Shown piece by piece: positions 1,293 to 30,204 of a stretch of DNA of 30,204 nt. The first letter of the stretch is position 1. Every line of letters begins with the position of its first letter. Origin of the DNA: a virus. Below the pieces are notes generated by a model. That model was not told where the DNA came from. It saw only the letters and a program-made list of their open reading frames with translations, and did not search any database. The position numbers and the translations under genes were made by a program. The stretch lies in the IMG/VR virus record IMGVR_UViG_3300024968_000003, positions 1-30,204 of that record; one strand, 5' to 3'.

Positions 1293-1700
1293 CTACACCT
1301 CCATCGTAAAAAATCTATTAGGTGCAGACGTCTGCACTTTTACCGCCGGTAACGCCACGCCTGCAGCTAAGTCATTCAAGTAACCCAGCACATCGCGGTG
1401 TGCGATTGCCAGGCGTGAGTCGTAAGTTCTAATGCAGCAACCGCAACGCTTAGCCTTTTGGTCTTTGGTGCCGGTTTCGGTGTAGCACTTCATCAGCACA
1501 TCTTTACGCTCTGGCAGTAAGGCGCACACCACTTGATCAATCTCCAAACATTGGCTATCCATTTCAGGTGTCCAGTAGCCGCTTGATGCAGTCTCTTTTA
1601 CAAACGCACATTTTTTTGGGTAGCCAGTACCACCATCTAACCGGCGCGCTCTCCAGTTGGCCCATTGAATCATTCTGTTGGTCACATAGGTGTCTAGCAT
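1293..1700 (-). CDS. Q-like late antitermination protein
   Basis: Resembles the phage antitermination Q family of the phage 82/P22-like type (Phage_antitermQ), which binds DNA near the late promoter and lets RNA polymerase pass terminators. Seen here: WANWRARRLDGGTGYPKK at residues 13-30, matching the family's W-x-x-W...GYP opening; an acidic helical centre with LEIDQVVCALLPERKDVLMKCY (in two parts, 52-73); and a C-terminal CGCCIRTYDSRLAIAHRDV region (86-104) where the family carries a helix-turn-helix. The 135 aa length is usual. The start at 1700 has AAGGAA upstream, and the preceding gene's stop overlaps that site. It lies near the end of the early operon, about 0.8 kb upstream of a promoter-terminator pair that fits a Q target. 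Without a profile search the family call is moderate. Confidence 0.6.
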   Translation of the reverse strand: MLDTYVTNRMIQWANWRARRLDGGTGYPKKCAFVKETASSGYWTPEMDSQCLEIDQVVCALLPERKDVLMKCYTETGTKDQKAKRCGCCIRTYDSRLAIAHRDVLGYLNDLAAGVALPAVKVQTSAPNRFFTMEV

Positions 1701-1702
1701 TC

Positions 1703-1918
1703 TTATTTCCTTAGCTCAAAATATTTACATTGGTTGCCAATACGTGGCACATCTTTGTTTGTTGTTTTACGCGGGTCTGTACACATCACCTTGCCAAATG
1801 CATGGGTATGCTTATCGCAAGCCACGCACCCCAACTCTCTCAGTTCAAGGTGCTCAACCACTATGGCTGGATCACGGTATCGGTTGGCGGGCAATGCCGC
1901 ACTACGTTCACTAGACAT
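1703..1918 (-). CDS. Small Cys-rich phage protein
   Basis: A 71-aa protein with four cysteines, C31, C34, C46 and C64 (GCVACDKH at 30-37, then KVMC and NQCKYF), a spacing that would suit one zinc site. The N-terminal part RYRDPAIVVEHLELRELG looks helical. I have no function for it. It starts at 1918 after AAGGGGAAAAAGG and overlaps the end of the upstream gene by 8 nt, so it belongs to the same leftward operon. It precedes the Q-like gene. A nucleic-acid-binding role is possible but unproven. Confidence 0.7.
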   Translation of the reverse strand: MSSERSAALPANRYRDPAIVVEHLELRELGCVACDKHTHAFGKVMCTDPRKTTNKDVPRIGNQCKYFELRK

Positions 1919-2204
1919 CCTTTTTCCCCTTATTCACTATCGCTATGTTTTCCTGACACTTCACACCCAACTCTAAATACCTTGCGCCGCTAAACCACAC
2001 CCTGTAATCAGAATCCGCTTTGTAATTTTTTGGTTTAATCTCTTTACCGTTCTCACTCATCGCCAGCACTTGCACATCTTCGCCAAACAAGCCTTTCATA
2101 AAATCCACCATCTCAGAACATTCGGGCATTGCCGCCCGCACATTGGCCGCTTGCTGTTCGCGGCTAATCTTTTTAGGCAGGTCAAACTCATCGTGCGTTT
2201 TCAT
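1911..2204 (-). CDS. Hypothetical phage protein, 97 aa
   Basis: Unrecognised small soluble protein, MKTHDEFDLPKKISREQQ at the N-terminus, mixed charge, no membrane segment. The frame is open to 2222, but the ATG at 2204 is the more likely start because the residues before it would be encoded by GGTATGGAA repeats. The two outermost repeats lie directly upstream and supply the only GGAA that could serve as ribosome site. Anything bound to those repeats could therefore affect translation or transcription of this gene. It is the first gene after the candidate origin and overlaps the next gene by 8 nt. Confidence 0.6.
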   Translation of the reverse strand: MKTHDEFDLPKKISREQQAANVRAAMPECSEMVDFMKGLFGEDVQVLAMSENGKEIKPKNYKADSDYRVWFSGARYLELGVKCQENIAIVNKGKKDV

Positions 2205-2206
2205 CG

Positions 2207-2467
2207 TTCCATACCCTTCCATACCTTGCTGTGAGGTGTGGAAGCCTGAAAGCCGCTATTTAATTGGCTGTTCCATACCTTCCATACCTTCCATACTAGA
2301 AATGATGAAAATAAATGTGCGTGTGTGCGCGTGCGCGCGTGTGTGTGTGCGCCTGTGTGTATGTAACTGCCAAATAGGTATGGAAGGTATGGAAGGTATG
2401 GAACCACCGCATGCTTATTAGCTTCTAAGCATCCATACCATTTGCGCTCGGTATGGAAGGTATGGAA
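2207..2467. repeat. Iteron-like GGTATGGAA array with Z-DNA-prone core (candidate origin)
   Basis: Eleven 9-bp units lie in 261 bp. In TTCCATACC orientation they start at 2207, 2217, 2271, 2280 and 2289 (last base varied). In GGTATGGAA orientation they start at 2377, 2386, 2395, 2450 and 2459. A further variant, ATCCATACC, is at 2431. The two tandem triplets form a 28-bp inverted repeat (2270-2297 with 2377-2404, one mismatch). Between them is a 38-bp strictly alternating purine-pyrimidine run (2315-2352, GT/GC type) followed by TGTGTGTATGT. A smaller hairpin, ATGCTTA/TAAGCAT, is at 2411-2432. The array directly follows the primase-helicase gene, where iteron origins often lie. The origin role is inference. 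Confidence 0.6.
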
Positions 2468-2492
2468 CATTAAGCCGATAATTTGGGCGGAT

Positions 2493-4964
2493 TTAGAACG
2501 GAATCGTGTCATCATCATCCTTTCCTGGTATGGGTTCACCAGATGCGGTGCGCGTTTTGTTGCCTTCCGGCGGGGTGTACCAGAACCGTGACTCTTTGTT
2601 CGTTCGCTTTTCAATACGAGAGCAACCTAGCAGCCGCAATGCGTTCCCTACCCTAGTCTGTATATCTCTAGAGTGATTCTGCACTGGGATTTTCAGCACA
2701 TCGTTAAGCACGTAAAAGAGCGTAAAGTCATCAAGCTGCTTATCTACAAAGTCATACAGCGCATCATTGAAGCTGTCATACACGCTACGTGATAGCTGCT
2801 CTGGGTCAAACAACTCCTGCTGCTCTTCGTTGGTTGGCCAGTATCGATAACCCTCATTGACCAAATGCACAGCTTCAGCAAACAATTGATCCCGAATCTT
2901 TCTTAACCCATCAGCATCAATCTCCTGAGTTACCAGCACAGGCCAAAAGCGCCTGCCGCCGGTTGGATCTTTATTCCACTCAAACTCATTGATGGTGCCT
3001 GCAAAAACAAGCTGACGGGGCGCCTTGATGTTCCTACGGCCATACACTGGGCGGTACTCATCTACCTTGCGAGAGAGGAATGACTTTTGTTTGGATGATT
3101 CCGCCTTAGTGACCGAGCCCATCTCAGAGAACTCATAAAGCATCTTGCCCTGAAGTGCGGCCATTGAGTCTTTGTTATGTAAATCTAAGTCGGTGTCGCC
3201 ATAAAACTCACCCCCAATAACTTCCAGCGCCGTGGACTTCTTACGGCCTTGCGGACCTTCTAGCACTAGGCAATAGTCAAACTTGCAGCCTGGTTCAAAC
3301 ACGCGCTTCACCATGCCCATAAAAAACCACCGAGCTACACGAGCTGAATACTTTGAATACTTCACCCCCATAAACTCTTCCATCCAATGGTCAAGCCTAT
3401 TCACACCATCCCATTTCAAGCTTTTCAGCCAATCTTTAGGTGGGTTAACGATGTTATCTCTAGCCATCGTTTCAATTGCTTCAGCAACCAGTTTGGTAGA
3501 TGGGTTAAAGCGGTATAACTTGGTTAACCACATGGCTGTCCTAGCATCGTCCTGCTCGGTCCACTCACCAGCTTCACCCGTGTTATTCCAGAACGGTGGT
3601 GCTTTAAGCTTCATTACGCGGTATGAAAACTCATCAAACGCGATGATGTCTTTCCAACGATCATCGTTTTGCAAAATATCCACCACATTGGCGAGACAAG
3701 GGACTAGATCGCCATGATTATTGCGGAGTAGATAACGCTTCCACTTTGGCTCATCATTGCCGCCGCCCTCTTCCACCCCCGCGGTAGCAGGCGCGGTATT
3801 TGCGGTTTCTGCCTTTTTATTTATTGCAACAACGTTGTCCGGCACAGCCGCCAGCACAGGGCGAGTTTTGAGGATAAAGTTAAGTAAGGCGGCAGCATTC
3901 ATGCCTTCGTCTACGGCATCAGCAATATCCCAGCCTGAAGGTTTCTCTAGGGGCTTAGGGATATCTACTAAGTGAAATTCAGTGGCAGGGTCAAGCGCGA
4001 GTAACTTATCGCGGATTCGTAGCATAGCCTTCATGCCAGGTTGCTCATGTTCATGCAACAATGGCTTGCTTTCAGGGTCTACGCCCTCAGCCTGCTCTGC
4101 CTTGGTGAGCTTTTCTCTTTGCGCGTCACAATCAGACCAAGAGTAAATTCTTCTACCTGCTAATGGCGACCAATCAACCTTGTCGATTGCTTTGCTGCCA
4201 CCAGGCCAGCTTACAGTTACGCATTCCAGCATACCAACAGGCGCATCTGCGCACTTTTCACCCTCTACCAATAACACCCAAGCATCAGACTTAGCCGCAA
4301 GACGATCCAGCCCATACAATGGGCGGTTAGGTTCAGGCCACTGCATCCAGCGCCAGTCGTATTTCTTGGTTTCTGCATGCTGGCAATACGTGAGTGGTAA
4401 TGTCTCTTTACTGCCATCACTTTTGTTGAATCGGTAAATCCACCCTAAGCATTGGCCGTTAGCGTCTTTGTACTCCCATTTCATCACTGGCAGGCCGCGC
4501 ACTTGGTGAGCCAGTGGCGCTTCATGGGCATTGCTAGGCACCGGCATTACAGGGTGCCAGTGATTCTCTTCTTTTGGTTTAGCTTGTTTGACGGTGCTGG
4601 GATCAATCACCGGCTTTTGGCGCTCGGTGTTGGCCTTAGTCTTAGGTATGCAACCTTCAGGCAACCTGTAGCCAATCTGGTCAGCCACATCAATTGCAGC
4701 CTCCCATTGCTCAATACCTTCTAGGTATGCATACAGGCTAATGAGGTCAGTGCCAGCATCATTAGTAGCGAAGTCACCCCATTTACCTGATCGGAGATTG
4801 ATGCTGAATGATCCAGCCTCTTTGTCCGCACGTAATGGATTAGTTACCTTGTACTCACCAGAGACAGTTTTACCACCAGGCAGCCACTTCTTTACCAATG
4901 TTTCAGCATTTGATAAAGCGTAACTAGCAATTTCCGGATATGGAATAGGAACTAAACCAGCCAC
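2493..4964 (-). CDS. TOPRIM primase fused to VapE/VirE-type helicase
   Basis: An 823-aa replication protein. The N-terminal 100 residues resemble the zinc-less start of phage/plasmid primases. A TOPRIM fold is seen with VLLVEGEKC (230-238, E235) and SWSDCD (275-280, D278 and D280). The C-terminal half is a virulence-associated-E P-loop ATPase: LKWDGVNRLDHW (516-527), Walker A EGPQGRKKST (569-578), Walker B-like KMLYEFSEM (607-615), FAGTINE (654-660) and a GGRRFWPV arginine-finger region (669-676). Such proteins prime and unwind DNA at phage or satellite origins. The start is GTG at 4964, with the upstream CII-like gene ending as TAGTG, so the two are coupled by a 1-nt overlap. The last residues, GKDDDDTIPF, closely match the acidic C-terminal tip of single-stranded DNA-binding protein. 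Confidence 0.88.
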   Translation of the reverse strand: MAGLVPIPYPEIASYALSNAETLVKKWLPGGKTVSGEYKVTNPLRADKEAGSFSINLRSGKWGDFATNDAGTDLISLYAYLEGIEQWEAAIDVADQIGYRLPEGCIPKTKANTERQKPVIDPSTVKQAKPKEENHWHPVMPVPSNAHEAPLAHQVRGLPVMKWEYKDANGQCLGWIYRFNKSDGSKETLPLTYCQHAETKKYDWRWMQWPEPNRPLYGLDRLAAKSDAWVLLVEGEKCADAPVGMLECVTVSWPGGSKAIDKVDWSPLAGRRIYSWSDCDAQREKLTKAEQAEGVDPESKPLLHEHEQPGMKAMLRIRDKLLALDPATEFHLVDIPKPLEKPSGWDIADAVDEGMNAAALLNFILKTRPVLAAVPDNVVAINKKAETANTAPATAGVEEGGGNDEPKWKRYLLRNNHGDLVPCLANVVDILQNDDRWKDIIAFDEFSYRVMKLKAPPFWNNTGEAGEWTEQDDARTAMWLTKLYRFNPSTKLVAEAIETMARDNIVNPPKDWLKSLKWDGVNRLDHWMEEFMGVKYSKYSARVARWFFMGMVKRVFEPGCKFDYCLVLEGPQGRKKSTALEVIGGEFYGDTDLDLHNKDSMAALQGKMLYEFSEMGSVTKAESSKQKSFLSRKVDEYRPVYGRRNIKAPRQLVFAGTINEFEWNKDPTGGRRFWPVLVTQEIDADGLRKIRDQLFAEAVHLVNEGYRYWPTNEEQQELFDPEQLSRSVYDSFNDALYDFVDKQLDDFTLFYVLNDVLKIPVQNHSRDIQTRVGNALRLLGCSRIEKRTNKESRFWYTPPEGNKTRTASGEPIPGKDDDDTIPF

Positions 4965-5404
4965 TATCTAACAACCCGCTTAACACCAGCTTTAAATTCA
5001 AGCAACTTAGCAATGACTTCATCCACTTCAATCGATAAAGCATCAAATTCTTTACGAGTGTAGTTACCATCAGCATAGGAAGTTTGAAACGTTGAAGAAA
5101 CATCGCCAAGCTCTTTCATCGTGCCCATAAATAAATCAAGCAACCCCATGTCGCTTTCGGGAACATTCGGCACCTTCATGAACACACCGCCAGCCTTGGC
5201 CGCAAAGTATTCAGCCACATCCTGGTTGCGGTCTGCAAAGTCCACCATCGTTTCAAACTCTTCAATGTTAAGATGGTGCGATTCATTGTTAGGATTAAGC
5301 TTGTTTCGTAAGACTACGTCGCCCTTACCCATCAGGTTAGCTAAACCTGCTACCGAGCCTGGAAACTCATGGCCAATTCGATAAGCTAAATATTTAATAG
5401 TCAA
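4964..5404 (-). CDS. CII-like regulatory protein (Phage_CP76 family)
   Basis: A 146-aa protein whose N-terminal half, YRIGHEFPGSVAGLANLMGK (residues 7-26) followed by LRNKLNPNNESHHLNIEEF (32-50), is typical of the CP76/CII phage regulatory family. These are helix-turn-helix activators in the early operon. The C-terminal part is helical and may oligomerise. The first codon is TTG at 5404. A GGGAG at 5417-5413 lies 8 nt upstream, the proper distance, whereas the out-of-frame ATG at 5411 is too close to it and reads only five codons. Position after cro and before the replication gene is as in lambda. It is separated from cro by a terminator (5481-5516). Confidence 0.8.
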   Translation of the reverse strand: MTIKYLAYRIGHEFPGSVAGLANLMGKGDVVLRNKLNPNNESHHLNIEEFETMVDFADRNQDVAEYFAAKAGGVFMKVPNVPESDMGLLDLFMGTMKELGDVSSTFQTSYADGNYTRKEFDALSIEVDEVIAKLLEFKAGVKRVVR

Positions 5405-5480
5405 CGTTCATTCTCCCGATTAAAAACGTATTTTTAGTTAATGCTCGATTACATAATTGCTACATACAAACTCAACACGC

Positions 5481-5516
5481 AAAAAAAGCCCCAAGTAGCG
5501 TGGCGCTACAAGGGGC
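5481..5516 (-). terminator. Terminator between cro and cII (tR1-like)
   Basis: Read leftward: GCCCC, TT, GTAGCG, loop CCA, CGCTAC, TT, GGGGC, then TTTTTTT. The outer 5-bp and inner 6-bp stems are perfect around a TT/TT internal loop. It interrupts the leftward early operon between cro and cII, the place of tR1 in lambda, so expression of cII, primase and Q may depend on read-through or antitermination. Confidence 0.8.
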
Positions 5517-8937: not shown

Positions 8938-10692
8938 ATGGACAATCAATCACTGGGGCGACTAATACCATTATCATCCATCTACCCATCAAGTACCAAC
9001 CCGCGTAAACGCTTTAATGAGTCTGATCTGCAAGAGCTTGCCGAAAGCATTAAGCAGCATGGGGTTATGCAGCCAATTTTAGTACGGCCAACCAATGTTG
9101 AAGAGGTTAACAGCGGTAAATCTAATATTTATGAATATGAAATCGTTGCTGGTGAGCGCCGCTGGCGAGCAAGTAAGCTGGCAGATAAAGAATTTATCCC
9201 AGCAATTGAACGTGAGCTTAACGACCTTGAAACACTGCAGCTGCAGATCATAGAAAACCTGCAACGCTCAGACCTTCACCCACTTGAAGAGGCGCAAGGC
9301 TTTAAGGCGCTACTAGATAACAAAGACGCTAAAAGCTGGAACGCGGACCAGCTAGCCGAAAAAATAGGCAAAAGCCGTAGCTACATCTACGCCAGCTTAA
9401 AACTGTGCGAGTTGAGCACCTACGCGCAAGATATGTTTTTAGAAGACAAATTTGGCCGTGAAACCGCCCTGCTTATCGCACGCATACCAGGCTCAAAACT
9501 GCAGGAGCAGGCAGCAAAAGATATTATTAACAGCGAATATAGTTATCGTAGAGCTAAAGAATATATCCGACATCGCTTCACACTAGATTTGAACAAAGCT
9601 CCTTGGGACAAGATTAGCATCACCCTCTATCCTAAAGCTGGCAGTTGCTTAAGCTGCCCACAACGCACAGGAAATTATCCAGAGTTATTTGCAGACATAG
9701 AAAGTCCAGACGTCTGCACAGACCCCGCATGCTTTGCAGCCAAAAAAACTGCATATGCAAAAGATCTGATTGCCAATAACCCACGCGTAATTCATGGTGA
9801 TGAGGCTAAAGAAGTGGCGCCATACGGGGTTAACCAATACATCACACATGGCTACACATCAAATCTTGGTTACGTGCAGGTTGATGGCCACTATGCAGAT
9901 AAATTGCTAGCTGATTTGCCGCCAAATGAAGCTCCGCAACCATACATTGTTATCGATAAGGATAATGAAACCAGAACGGTTTACAACGAAAACGAAGTAA
10001 CTAACCTGATGAAGTTGAAGCTTGAAGAAAAAATAGCTTCAGGTGAAATTGTAATTACGCCCAAAGAAAAATCACCTTATCAACTGGAGCGTGAGGCGAT
10101 AGAGCTTAAGCAGGATGAAGAGAAGCAAAGGCGCCTGCATATATTCAATCGATTAGCACCCAATATCAGCCAGCAACATCAGGCATTGATTTTACGCATG
10201 GCCATTGATCAACTTAGCAGAGAAGTAAGCACGGACCTTGAGCCAGTATTAAATCTTTATGATTTTGAAGGCACTGAAGAAGAGTTTTTCACGGACTTTC
10301 AGCAAAGTGAACAAGATCTGGCCAGCTTAACAAAAATGCTTGCTTTACTCTTAATTGCACCAGGCGTTGAAGTTTCAAGCTGGCAATGGAAATCTGAAGA
10401 AGATAACGATAAAGACCAAGATTACCAATCATTACTCACCTTCATCAGCAATATGGGCCTCGATTTAGCGCAATTTTTAACCGCCGAACTGCCCCTTACC
10501 CCTCCTATTGCTGCGCAAGCGAAGGAATTGTCAGCCGACGAAAAAGCCCTACTCAGTACGCCGGAAGCTGCGCCGACTGAAGAGAAAAAGCTATCGCCTA
10601 AGTTGCAGGAAATTAAAGATAAAGAGCTGGCCAAGCGTGCCAGGAGAGCTAAGAACAAAGAACAAAAGGAGTCTGCTAACGCAGACGCATAA
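8938..10692 (+). CDS. ParB/RepB/Spo0J-family protein, 584 aa
   Basis: Carries the ParB N-terminal CTP-binding domain: NPRKRF (21-26), AGERRWRA (71-78) and ENLQRSDLHPLEEA (106-119, the E-N-x-x-R motif). A helix-turn-helix (135-158, NADQLAEKIGKSRSYIYASL) follows. A cysteine cluster C237, C240, C260 and C265 (SCLSCPQ ... VCTDPACF) may hold zinc. The C-terminal third is acidic, then Ala/Lys-rich. This length is typical of ParB-like proteins on phages and integrative elements, not of the chromosomal protein of about 300 aa. There is no ParA nearby and an integrase is present, so classical plasmid partition is unlikely. A role in DNA binding, regulation or recombination is more likely. It starts at 8938 after AGGAA. 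Confidence 0.88.
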   Translation: MDNQSLGRLIPLSSIYPSSTNPRKRFNESDLQELAESIKQHGVMQPILVRPTNVEEVNSGKSNIYEYEIVAGERRWRASKLADKEFIPAIERELNDLETLQLQIIENLQRSDLHPLEEAQGFKALLDNKDAKSWNADQLAEKIGKSRSYIYASLKLCELSTYAQDMFLEDKFGRETALLIARIPGSKLQEQAAKDIINSEYSYRRAKEYIRHRFTLDLNKAPWDKISITLYPKAGSCLSCPQRTGNYPELFADIESPDVCTDPACFAAKKTAYAKDLIANNPRVIHGDEAKEVAPYGVNQYITHGYTSNLGYVQVDGHYADKLLADLPPNEAPQPYIVIDKDNETRTVYNENEVTNLMKLKLEEKIASGEIVITPKEKSPYQLEREAIELKQDEEKQRRLHIFNRLAPNISQQHQALILRMAIDQLSREVSTDLEPVLNLYDFEGTEEEFFTDFQQSEQDLASLTKMLALLLIAPGVEVSSWQWKSEEDNDKDQDYQSLLTFISNMGLDLAQFLTAELPLTPPIAAQAKELSADEKALLSTPEAAPTEEKKLSPKLQEIKDKELAKRARRAKNKEQKESANADA

Positions 10693-11423: not shown

Positions 11424-11630
11424 ATGAGCGATATCGAATTAGCAATTAAAGCTGTACAAGCCTATGCTGAACGGCATCCAAGGCCGTTACAAGTCACACA
11501 AAAGCAAGCTGCTGAGATGCTGGAATTGTCAGTGCCAACCGTGCGTAAAATGGTGGCTAGTGGCGCACTAAAGCTAAATAAATGCGGAATGATACCGATC
11601 AGTCAAATTGACATCGCGCTGGCCGCTTAA
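11424..11630 (+). CDS. Excisionase-like HTH protein
   Basis: A 68-aa protein of the helix-turn-helix/excisionase type: VTQKQAAEMLELSVPTVRKM (residues 24-43) then VASGALKLNKCGMIPISQID, the pattern of MerR-like/Xis DNA-binding domains. It ends the rightward operon and overlaps the 3' end of the convergent integrase gene by 4 nt (11627-11630). The placement beside int, under the operator-controlled promoter, is what an excisionase needs. The start at 11424 has GGAAG upstream. A non-Xis HTH role cannot be excluded. Confidence 0.7.
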   Translation: MSDIELAIKAVQAYAERHPRPLQVTQKQAAEMLELSVPTVRKMVASGALKLNKCGMIPISQIDIALAA

Positions 11631-12607
11631 TCTAGCATAGCAGAAACATCATGCGCCTTCGGATTGTAATAAACGAGCGCCTGCTTTGTGTCAGACCACC
11701 CAAAAATCTTACATAAAGTCAGAACGTCAACCTTACGAGAAATCCACGTTGCTGCAGTATGCCTCGCATCGTGGAACGTAAATCCCTTAAGCTTAGCTTT
11801 ATCCCTAGCCTGCCGAAAAAGTACATCTCGAGTAGTAGAAGTAACTCTAAACACGGACTTTTTATCAAAGCCACGCATCTTATTAAAAAGCCTCACAGCT
11901 TTTTTTGATAATGGAACATCCCTGGGCGTTGTTTTTGTTTTAGGCAGCACACAATGCCGCTCATGCACCTTGTCCCAAGTTAAATTACATAACTCCCCTG
12001 CACGCATCCCAGTACGAAGCGCAACCAAAAAAAGCACGGCCACAGATTGCGAAGATGTCTTTATGCGGGATAACGGGGAGTAGCCAAGCGCTCTCAGCAT
12101 TAATTTTATCTGTCTACGAGTAATTGTTACCTCGCGGTGATCTGGGTGCTTAGGCTTACGGACATCTGCAACGGGGTTTTCACTAATCCACTTTAACTCA
12201 CGCCTGGCATATTCAAAGATACCCGACATTACGCCAAGCTCGCGAATTATAGATCCAGCAGAGATAGTCTGCGCATCACGCCAGACACCCAATACCTCGC
12301 TGGTGCAATCAATTAAAGGCAGCTCAATTGGCAGCTTACTTTCTTTTTTAAGAAATTTATTAATGCGCACAATTTCCCATCTAGACCCATCTTTCGTCGG
12401 AGATACCTCATCGCGGTATTTTTCAAACAACTCTCTTAGCGTTCGCTTTTCTTGGGGTGACTTCTTGGCATTTGCTCGCAGCTCAGTTTCCCTGGCAGCT
12501 GCCCATGCGTTAGCCTCTCGTAGAGTGCGGAAGATATCACTATCCCGCTGGCCTAAAACATAGACCTGAGCGCGATAGCCATTTTTGTAAGGCTTGATTG
12601 AGGCCAT
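11627..12607 (-). CDS. int: Tyrosine site-specific integrase
   Basis: A 326-aa phage integrase that joins attP and attB. The arm-binding N-terminus starts MASIKPYKNGYRAQVYVLG. The core SAM-like domain covers about 50-150. The catalytic domain has R202 (LRTGMRAGEL), the Lys region at 223-229 (KTKTTPRD), H279 and R282 (FHDARHTAATW), W304 in the usual second-His position (FGWSDTKQ) and nucleophile Y313 (LVYYNP). All catalytic residues are present and the length is normal. There is no good ribosome site before the ATG at 12607. It points away from the candidate attP, which lies about 140 bp upstream. It converges with the excisionase-like gene. Confidence 0.93.
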   Translation of the reverse strand: MASIKPYKNGYRAQVYVLGQRDSDIFRTLREANAWAAARETELRANAKKSPQEKRTLRELFEKYRDEVSPTKDGSRWEIVRINKFLKKESKLPIELPLIDCTSEVLGVWRDAQTISAGSIIRELGVMSGIFEYARRELKWISENPVADVRKPKHPDHREVTITRRQIKLMLRALGYSPLSRIKTSSQSVAVLFLVALRTGMRAGELCNLTWDKVHERHCVLPKTKTTPRDVPLSKKAVRLFNKMRGFDKKSVFRVTSTTRDVLFRQARDKAKLKGFTFHDARHTAATWISRKVDVLTLCKIFGWSDTKQALVYYNPKAHDVSAMLD

Positions 12608-29858: not shown

Positions 29859-30164
29859 CTATTGCTTTTGCGACTTTGCGTAATCTATTGCTGCATGGTT
29901 CGTATCAACCATCCCATGCGCTGTATAAGCATCTACTTCCGTTAATGCGATTTTAACTACATCGCCAACTTCGCCTAAATTACTATCGCGCAACAAGACA
30001 GCCTCTACTAACTCACCAGCTGCGGCTTGGTCGGCTGCGGCTTGGTCGGCTGCGGCTTGGTCGGCTGCGGCTTGGTCGGCTGCGGCTTGGTCGGCTGCGG
30101 CTTGGTCAGCTGCGGCTTGGTCAGCTGATAACAAATCATCAGCTTTAGCTTGGTTCTTTGCCAT
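29859..30164 (-). CDS. Capsid-proximal small protein with DQAAA repeats
   Basis: A 101-aa protein. After MAKNQAKADDLLSA come seven DQAAA units (residues 15-49), then LVEAVLLRDSNLGEVGDVVK and AHGMVDTNHAAIDYAKSQ. The C-terminal half resembles small proteins often found just after the major capsid gene (L-L-R-D...G-x-V-G-D-V-V...A-x-G-x-V-D). The repeat is probably an Ala-rich helical linker. AGGAG lies 8 nt before the ATG at 30164. Function unknown; a decoration or minor head part is possible. Confidence 0.7.
   Translation of the reverse strand: MAKNQAKADDLLSADQAAADQAAADQAAADQAAADQAAADQAAADQAAAGELVEAVLLRDSNLGEVGDVVKIALTEVDAYTAHGMVDTNHAAIDYAKSQKQ
30019..30123. repeat. Seven tandem 15-bp repeats coding DQAAA
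   Basis: Seven copies of GCTGCGGCTTGGTCG (last base or two varied) start every 15 bp at 30019, 30034, 30049, 30064, 30079, 30094 and 30109. They are GC-rich against an AT-rich background. Changes in copy number keep the frame. Confidence 0.95.
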
Positions 30165-30186
30165 ATCAGGCTCCTAATGAATGATT

Positions 30187-30204
30187 ATTAAAAAGGGGCG
30201 AAGC
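30187..30204 (-). terminator. Partial terminator cut by window edge
   Basis: Read leftward, GCTTCGCCCC followed by TTTTT looks like the 3' half of a GGGGC-TTC-GCCCC hairpin. It would follow the gene beyond the edge, probably the major capsid gene. Only half is visible. Confidence 0.45.

Follow-up and report, generated by a model that had tools for sequence, protein, structure and literature searches.

The replication origins of PICI and SaPI elements, phage-inducible chromosomal islands known from Gram-positive bacteria and E. coli, lie directly 3' of the rep gene and consist of two sets of iterons placed around a melting region (PMC6092414), and Rep acts on these iterons through its C-terminal domain (PMC7581432). 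In the P4 alpha protein, a DnaG-type primase and a helicase are fused to a winged-helix DNA-binding domain that acts on repeats (as cited in PMC4234260). The origins of the plasmid pRN1 and of Bordetella phage BIP-1 are defined by a stem-loop and have no iterons (PMC4234260). The telomere sites of the N15 type are inverted repeats around an alternating core, forming perfect palindromes that are cut by protelomerase. It has long been an open question whether Z-DNA has a clear biological role in bacteria and phages.

Here, we describe an element from a viral genome record (IMG/VR IMGVR_UViG_3300024968_000003), of which one strand of 30,204 nucleotides was analysed; this whole stretch is referred to as the window in the following. 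The element, at 2207-2467, is very likely an iteron replication origin that resembles those of PICI and SaPI elements but has a GC-rich, Z-DNA-prone centre; its activity is inferred. It is composed of twelve GGTATGGAA/TTCCATACC units, nine of them exact (minus strand at 2207, 2217, 2271 and 2280; plus strand at 2377, 2386, 2395, 2450 and 2459) and three with one mismatch to GGTATGGAA (2235, plus; 2289 and 2431, minus). Across the entire window, GGTATGGAA is matched 19 times with at most one mismatch, compared with 5.5 expected occurrences, and none of 100 shuffled sequences contained as many.

These units follow a strict order. Two inverted units, a lone direct unit, a 27-bp spacer and three inverted units lead up to the centre, beyond which the mirror image follows: three direct units, a 27-bp spacer, a lone inverted unit and two direct units. 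The whole element is mirror-symmetric, with 36 bp from lone unit to inner triplet (start-to-start) on both sides. Its inner triplets (2270-2297 and 2377-2404) constitute an inverted repeat in which 27 of 28 positions are paired, and its outer unit sets form short inverted pairs. In a neutral scan for opposed tandem dimers, it was the single such place in the window. Just inside each lone unit, the spacers (2244-2270 and 2404-2430) carry a mirrored motif of about GCCtGAAAGCC, the function of which is unexplained and which is also found in elements built from other units (L144 and L065). Hairpins inside the 27-bp spacers had folding energies no better than those of shuffled sequences.

An earlier note, made from the sequence alone, had described this element correctly in all essentials. 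Its count of eleven 9-bp units nearly held, its 28-bp inverted repeat of opposed triplets held with the one unpaired position given above, and its purely alternating tract at 2315-2352 was confirmed exactly; the mirror symmetry and the outer inverted pairs were not mentioned there. Its placement of the array after a TOPRIM/VapE-type gene was likewise confirmed and extends to all 68 comparable loci (see below). The coordinates of all features are compiled in Table 1.

Table 1. Features of the element and of the adjoining genes, in window coordinates.
Feature	Position	Strand	Remark
Next gene of the primase operon	1911..2204	-	Start codon 2 bp beyond the last unit
Outer tandem pair, inverted units	2207..2225	-	Adjoins the start of the next gene
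Lone unit GGTGTGGAA	2235..2243	+	
Mirror spacer with motif GCCTGAAAGCC	2244..2270		
Inner triplet, inverted units	2271..2297	-	Third unit with one mismatch
Short AT-rich border, away from the primase	2298..2314		Candidate melting site; read from sequence, family profile likewise
Alternating purine-pyrimidine tract, 38 bp, Z-DNA-prone	2315..2352		Longest run of the window
Inner triplet of GGTATGGAA units	2377..2403	+	Pairs with the opposite triplet (27/28)
27-bp spacer with mirrored, semi-conserved motif about GCCtGAAAGCC	2404..2430		Without hairpin signal
Lone inverted unit GGTATGGAT	2431..2439	-	One mismatch
Outer tandem pair of GGTATGGAA units, primase side	2450..2467	+	Arrangement common to relatives
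VapE-type primase-helicase, 823 aa, probable initiator	2493..4964	-	PF05272, E 3.9e-70
C-terminal winged helix (residues 722-803), probable unit reader	2556..2801	-	Models, fold comparison, residue 794

For the 823-residue primase-helicase, an AlphaFold model with a mean pLDDT of 83.8 was compared to known structures with VIA-align. Residues of about 4-107 adopt a DnaG-like zinc-binding fold (Z 10.6 to the DnaG zinc domain) and residues of about 134-372 a TOPRIM/DnaG RNA polymerase domain (Z 13.6), while residues 406-804 match the structure of Staphylococcus PriRep1 bound to dsDNA (7pds, Z 31.2); the SaPI5 primase-helicase (7om0) gave a lower match (Z 11.5). The protein is thus predicted to combine a DnaG-like primase with a helicase of the PriRep1/SaPI type that ends in a winged helix. 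The C-terminal 82 residues were also modelled as a winged helix when taken alone. This domain matched 7pds and, for the most part, generic winged helices best, all with modest Z; one of the many generic matches is Zalpha of PKZ (Z 5.7, from fold comparison only).

A DNA-level search of a phage collection with window positions 1700-5500 gave no match, after which relatives were traced by protein and pattern searches. Exact copies of the 18-mer GGTATGGAAGGTATGGAA are present in 59 stretches of viral contigs from IMG/VR and in 72 stretches of GTDB genomes, dozens of which show the identical mirror layout with identical distances. Overall, the layout (-- + --- tract +++ - ++) was found in about 60 distinct viral or prophage loci, and the named bacterial carriers are mainly betaproteobacteria (Nitrosomonas, Methylophilaceae, Methylobacillus, Methylovorus, Rhodocyclaceae, Dechloromonas and Rhodoferax). 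In every one of the 68 loci that retain the neighbouring gene, to which this count is restricted, the element is located 0-56 bp directly 3' of a VapE-type primase-helicase gene; in one of them, the outermost unit overlaps it. As a smaller set of loci (L008, L013, L023, L027, L092 and L128) has only the inner arrays around the tract, the minimal core is likely to consist of an inverted pair, the tract and a direct pair. An extended element with an additional unit set on the primase side, bringing the units to 15 instead of 12, was seen in L022 and L103 (1700-2022 in the latter). Many further GGTATGGAAGGTATGGAA matches, in contigs of Bacteroidetes, Firmicutes and archaea, lack the layout, being single copies or simple tandem arrays, and were not considered further. 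Literature searches, which excluded most subscription papers, for the unit and for Z-DNA in connection with phage origins or genomes yielded no earlier description of this family.

The layout is not tied to one unit sequence. Relatives whose primases are 47-59% identical and which lack any GGTATGGAA build it from GGTTAGGAA units (L065-L067), and a scan of further VapE relatives revealed it with GTTGGGAA units in L179 and with other unit types, including GTCCAACC, CTGGAACA and GGGTACA. Marinobacter phage PS3 uses units of the GGGGTGACC/GGTATGACC type, and Pseudomonas phages have the layout with GTCCCAC units, one small gene further on. In these Pseudomonas-type phages (L225-L302), the element starts about 380 bp past the primase stop, its units are of the GTCCCAC/GTCCTAC type, and its centre is a composite of a Z-prone part followed by an AT-rich part. 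A unit-blind detector, which requires tandem dimers facing their inverted copy 40-130 bp away, found such arrangements downstream of 116 of 231 primases, but upstream of only two and in none of the 231 shuffled sequences. Looser detection in the remaining 115 loci yielded 65 downstream, compared with 10 upstream and one shuffled; it includes opposed dimers 150-190 bp apart in an Acidovorax/Variovorax group, weaker matches that were left out of the main figures. No element was seen in Burkholderia phage Mica, a distant VapE relative. Thus, comparison shows an iteron array that is conserved, strictly placed and mirror-symmetric, and in which the unit changes as a set between lineages.

VapE genes of low-GC or Gram-positive phages are also followed by iterons (L305, L306 and L307). 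Enterococcus phage phiFL4A has GTATCCAT iterons around a TATATA-type centre (L306, 3880-4220), a Staphylococcus phage has GTGTTAC iterons after its VapE gene, and a Corynebacterium phage has GGAACAA iterons at this place, without alternation.

Unlike the units, the central tract is not conserved as a sequence. In the window, its purine-pyrimidine alternation is unbroken over 38 nt, whereas the next-longest run has 15 and no run in 200 shuffled windows exceeded 23. With a GC content of 0.68, as opposed to 0.45 for the genome, and a long alternating run rich in CG, CA and TG, it has the sequence features expected of Z-DNA-forming DNA. By a simple energy model, no other 80-mer of the window is as Z-prone as the tract region; in a simple superhelical model, its estimated critical -sigma for the Z transition (0.043) is the lowest of the 30 kb. 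The same model gave a median of 0.046 for the family and of 0.065 for shuffled sequences, although these values are only indicative.

The same property recurs across the family. In 53 distinct centres of the GGTATGGAA type, steps alternate with a frequency below 0.5 next to the arms, increasing to mostly 0.8-1.0 in the central part, yet each position is a purine in only about half of the elements, and the phase of the alternation is therefore free. These centres also share, in their profile, the short AT-rich border on the side distal to the primase. When all unit types are considered, 67 of 98 distinct centres contain a 40-mer in which at least 80% of the steps alternate, in contrast to 0.2% of 2972 control windows, and no other 40-mer of the locus alternates as strongly as the tract in 63 of the 86 loci with a length of 5 kb or more. 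The alternating tracts are GC-richer than their own locus in 97% of cases, with a median difference of +0.12, and several contain pure runs of 38-55 nt. Among close relatives, transitions outnumber transversion-type changes by 33 to 8 in the tract, compared with 71 to 68 in the flanks (p 0.001), implying that changes that would break the alternation are avoided. Comparison thus shows that selection acts on alternation and that the centre is conserved for alternation and high GC content, but neither for sequence nor for phase. The tract is not universal, however, because some relatives with the array have weak or no alternation (L144, L190, L217, L218 and L008); in others, the centres between clear arrays alternate only weakly or are richer in AT (L175, L193, L304 and L199). 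We consider it slightly less likely than not that Z-DNA formation is a real functional step; no experiment shows Z-DNA.

Evidence on the protein that reads the units comes from the primase itself. When every alignment column was compared with the unit class, the strongest association of the whole protein was found for residue 794, a phenylalanine (F794) in the last strand of the wing. A tyrosine occupies this position in seven of eight phages with GGTTAGGAA/GGTTGGGAA (GGTTRGGAA) units, but in none of 51 with GGTATGGAA (p 2.3e-8). When the last 110 residues of the primase are excluded from the tree, the unit class switches at least five times on well-supported branches; residue 794 follows the switch in four to five of five independent pairs and never goes in the opposite direction. 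A sign test on these pairs alone gives p 0.06, there being too few pairs to reach 0.05. Furthermore, codon 794 is only about 110 bp away from the element, so recombination that transfers the end of the gene together with the element might account for part of the covariation. If linkage were the only cause, however, many columns of the C-terminus should score highly, whereas those ranking next after residue 794 are located in other parts of the primase. The covariation of unit and residue is shown by comparison; that the adjacent primase-helicase reads the units is very likely but lacks binding data. Residue 794 is accordingly a candidate specificity switch for iteron recognition.

The origin reading rests on the constant position 3' of the VapE gene, on the covariation between units and residue 794 and on the PICI/SaPI-type layout; architecture and placement are shown by comparison. 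As the most probable overall explanation, though without replication, binding or Z-DNA experiments, we propose a theta origin with a C-terminal reader and a centre that unwinds. The element would serve as an origin of theta-type replication, at which the C-terminal domain of the primase-helicase would contact the opposed arrays, with the protein probably forming two hexamers that face each other. Once the initiator is bound and the DNA negatively supercoiled, the central tract would flip to Z-DNA or otherwise absorb unwinding, which would help to open the neighbouring short AT-rich border. The two helicase-primase complexes would then leave in opposite directions, and the fused DnaG-like primase would prime both forks. 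Binding, melting, Z-DNA and bidirectionality are all inferred, and it counts against the origin reading that the usual AT-rich melting region is reduced here to short borders. The earlier note had also proposed an origin, which the comparison strongly supports, leaving binding, origin activity and Z-DNA inferred; the conservation check that it suggested turned out as predicted, with units and alternating tract kept in relatives and the sequence of the tract varying.

In a bolder version, which we regard as plausible but rather less probable than its negation, a switch to Z-DNA would be a functional component of a widespread origin family in phages. Opposed iterons, recognised by the C-terminal wing of the adjacent primase-helicase, would hold between them a GC-rich tract under selection for alternation alone, whose flip to Z-DNA would drive opening and replace the classical AT-rich unwinding element. 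Whichever version applies, dozens of diverged phages have retained an alternating GC-rich tract at this place despite turnover of its sequence and phase. A function of Z-DNA can thus be tested directly in an assayable system, a small replicon.

Among the alternatives, the one that survives best accepts the same origin but regards the tract as a flexible, easily unwound or unbound spacer that never forms Z-DNA. We lean slightly against it. In its favour, an alternating sequence has the highest possible number of pyrimidine-purine steps, which stack weakly, the tracts show no depletion of TA steps relative to composition, and the TATATA-type alternating centre of the low-GC relative phiFL4A would melt rather than form Z-DNA. 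Against it stand the long pure runs and the GC enrichment of nearly all tracts described above, since easy melting would ask for the opposite, while Z-DNA favours GC.

Much weaker is the possibility that the element acts as RNA, with a long hairpin in the transcript of the primase operon controlling termination, processing or translation of the next gene. The element does lie inside the operon, its triplets could pair over 27 of 28 positions, and the start codon of the next gene lies in or adjoins the last unit in most relatives. However, neither arms nor spacers show pairing covariation: the arms have one compensatory and 18 one-sided changes, and the complementarity of spacers to their own partner (11.3) does not differ from that to other phages' spacers (11.5, p 0.69). 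Moreover, the unit is conserved as a sequence and tracks residue 794, which is inferred to bind DNA, and the element has no match in Rfam. We therefore consider this explanation very unlikely; the long hairpin with a transcript-level role, initially raised as the rival idea, finds no support in covariation.

It is similarly improbable that the element is a regulatory operator of another kind or a partition site (centromere) for a phage-encoded ParB-like protein. A ParB-domain protein is indeed encoded in the window, and repeated inverted sites are typical of centromeres and operators, but among 22 records bearing the element, possibly fragments, just 10 have a ParB_N match, whereas VapE is always adjacent, and the covarying residue belongs to the primase. 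Lastly, a packaging (cos/pac) or recombination site is very unlikely: the element is about 2 kb from an HNH gene at the end of the window, where a terminase would follow, and repeats and Z-DNA can promote recombination, but the annotated cosR of the related Variovorax phage VarioGold is about 2 kb away from the corresponding region, the element of Marinobacter phage PS3 is about 7 kb from the terminase, and the constant neighbour is the primase, not the terminase.

Returning to the origin reading, the element also abuts the next gene of the operon (at 2204-2222), which has an alternative ATG at 2222, inside a unit. As this gene starts at or inside the last unit in most loci, an added effect of the element on its expression is possible, and initiator binding at the outermost unit could conceivably exert such an influence; the outermost units were initially suggested to form the leader of this gene. 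Elsewhere in the window, a protein at 8938-10692 contains ParB_N plus HTH_ParB domains, and a small late-region protein at 29859-30164 has a tandem AADQA repeat. The record begins at an HNH gene (1-472) and ends in late genes (29859-30204), and no terminase, portal or capsid genes were identified in it, late-gene families not having been searched one by one; for these reasons, it is probably an incomplete phage or prophage map.

With regard to known systems, one resemblance is to the telomere sites of the N15 type, with which the element shares inverted repeats around an alternating purine-pyrimidine core. Unlike these, its tract is no palindrome, and at 11627-12607 the window encodes a recombinase, the only one identified, that matches ordinary integrases. 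Like the pRN1 and BIP-1 origins, the element directly follows the 3' end of a gene for a primase-helicase that carries a C-terminal winged helix, and it has inverted arms around a loop. Its units, however, are conserved at the sequence level, and no covariation of pairing is seen. With P4 alpha, compared via PMC4234260 only, its primase-helicase shares the domain plan with a winged helix. The P4 unit sequence and origin layout differ from those of the present element, and the P4 origin is not known to have a Z-prone centre.

The closest parallel is that to PICI and SaPI origins. As in these, the element lies directly 3' of the initiator gene, two iteron sets flank a central region, and the initiator is related to the SaPI Rep/PriRep1 helicases with their C-terminal DNA-binding domain. 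By contrast, the criterion of an AT-rich centre is not met, as the centre is GC-rich and alternating with only short AT-rich borders; extra mirrored outer unit sets are present at fixed distances, and the primase has a fused DnaG-like primase with a zinc-binding fold. The carriers, too, are tailed temperate phages and not satellites: the window has a phage-like late gene block (judged from the list of open reading frames, families not having been searched individually), so that the satellite criterion of lacking own tail genes is not met, and capsid, portal and terminase genes are present in the complete genomes of the related phages PS3 and Haddon. Given the centre that is not AT-rich and the tailed carriers, we refer to the element as a variant rather than a member of the PICI origins. 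An origin layout said to be unique to satellite islands thereby extends to a large group of temperate phages, and offers a way to annotate their origins.
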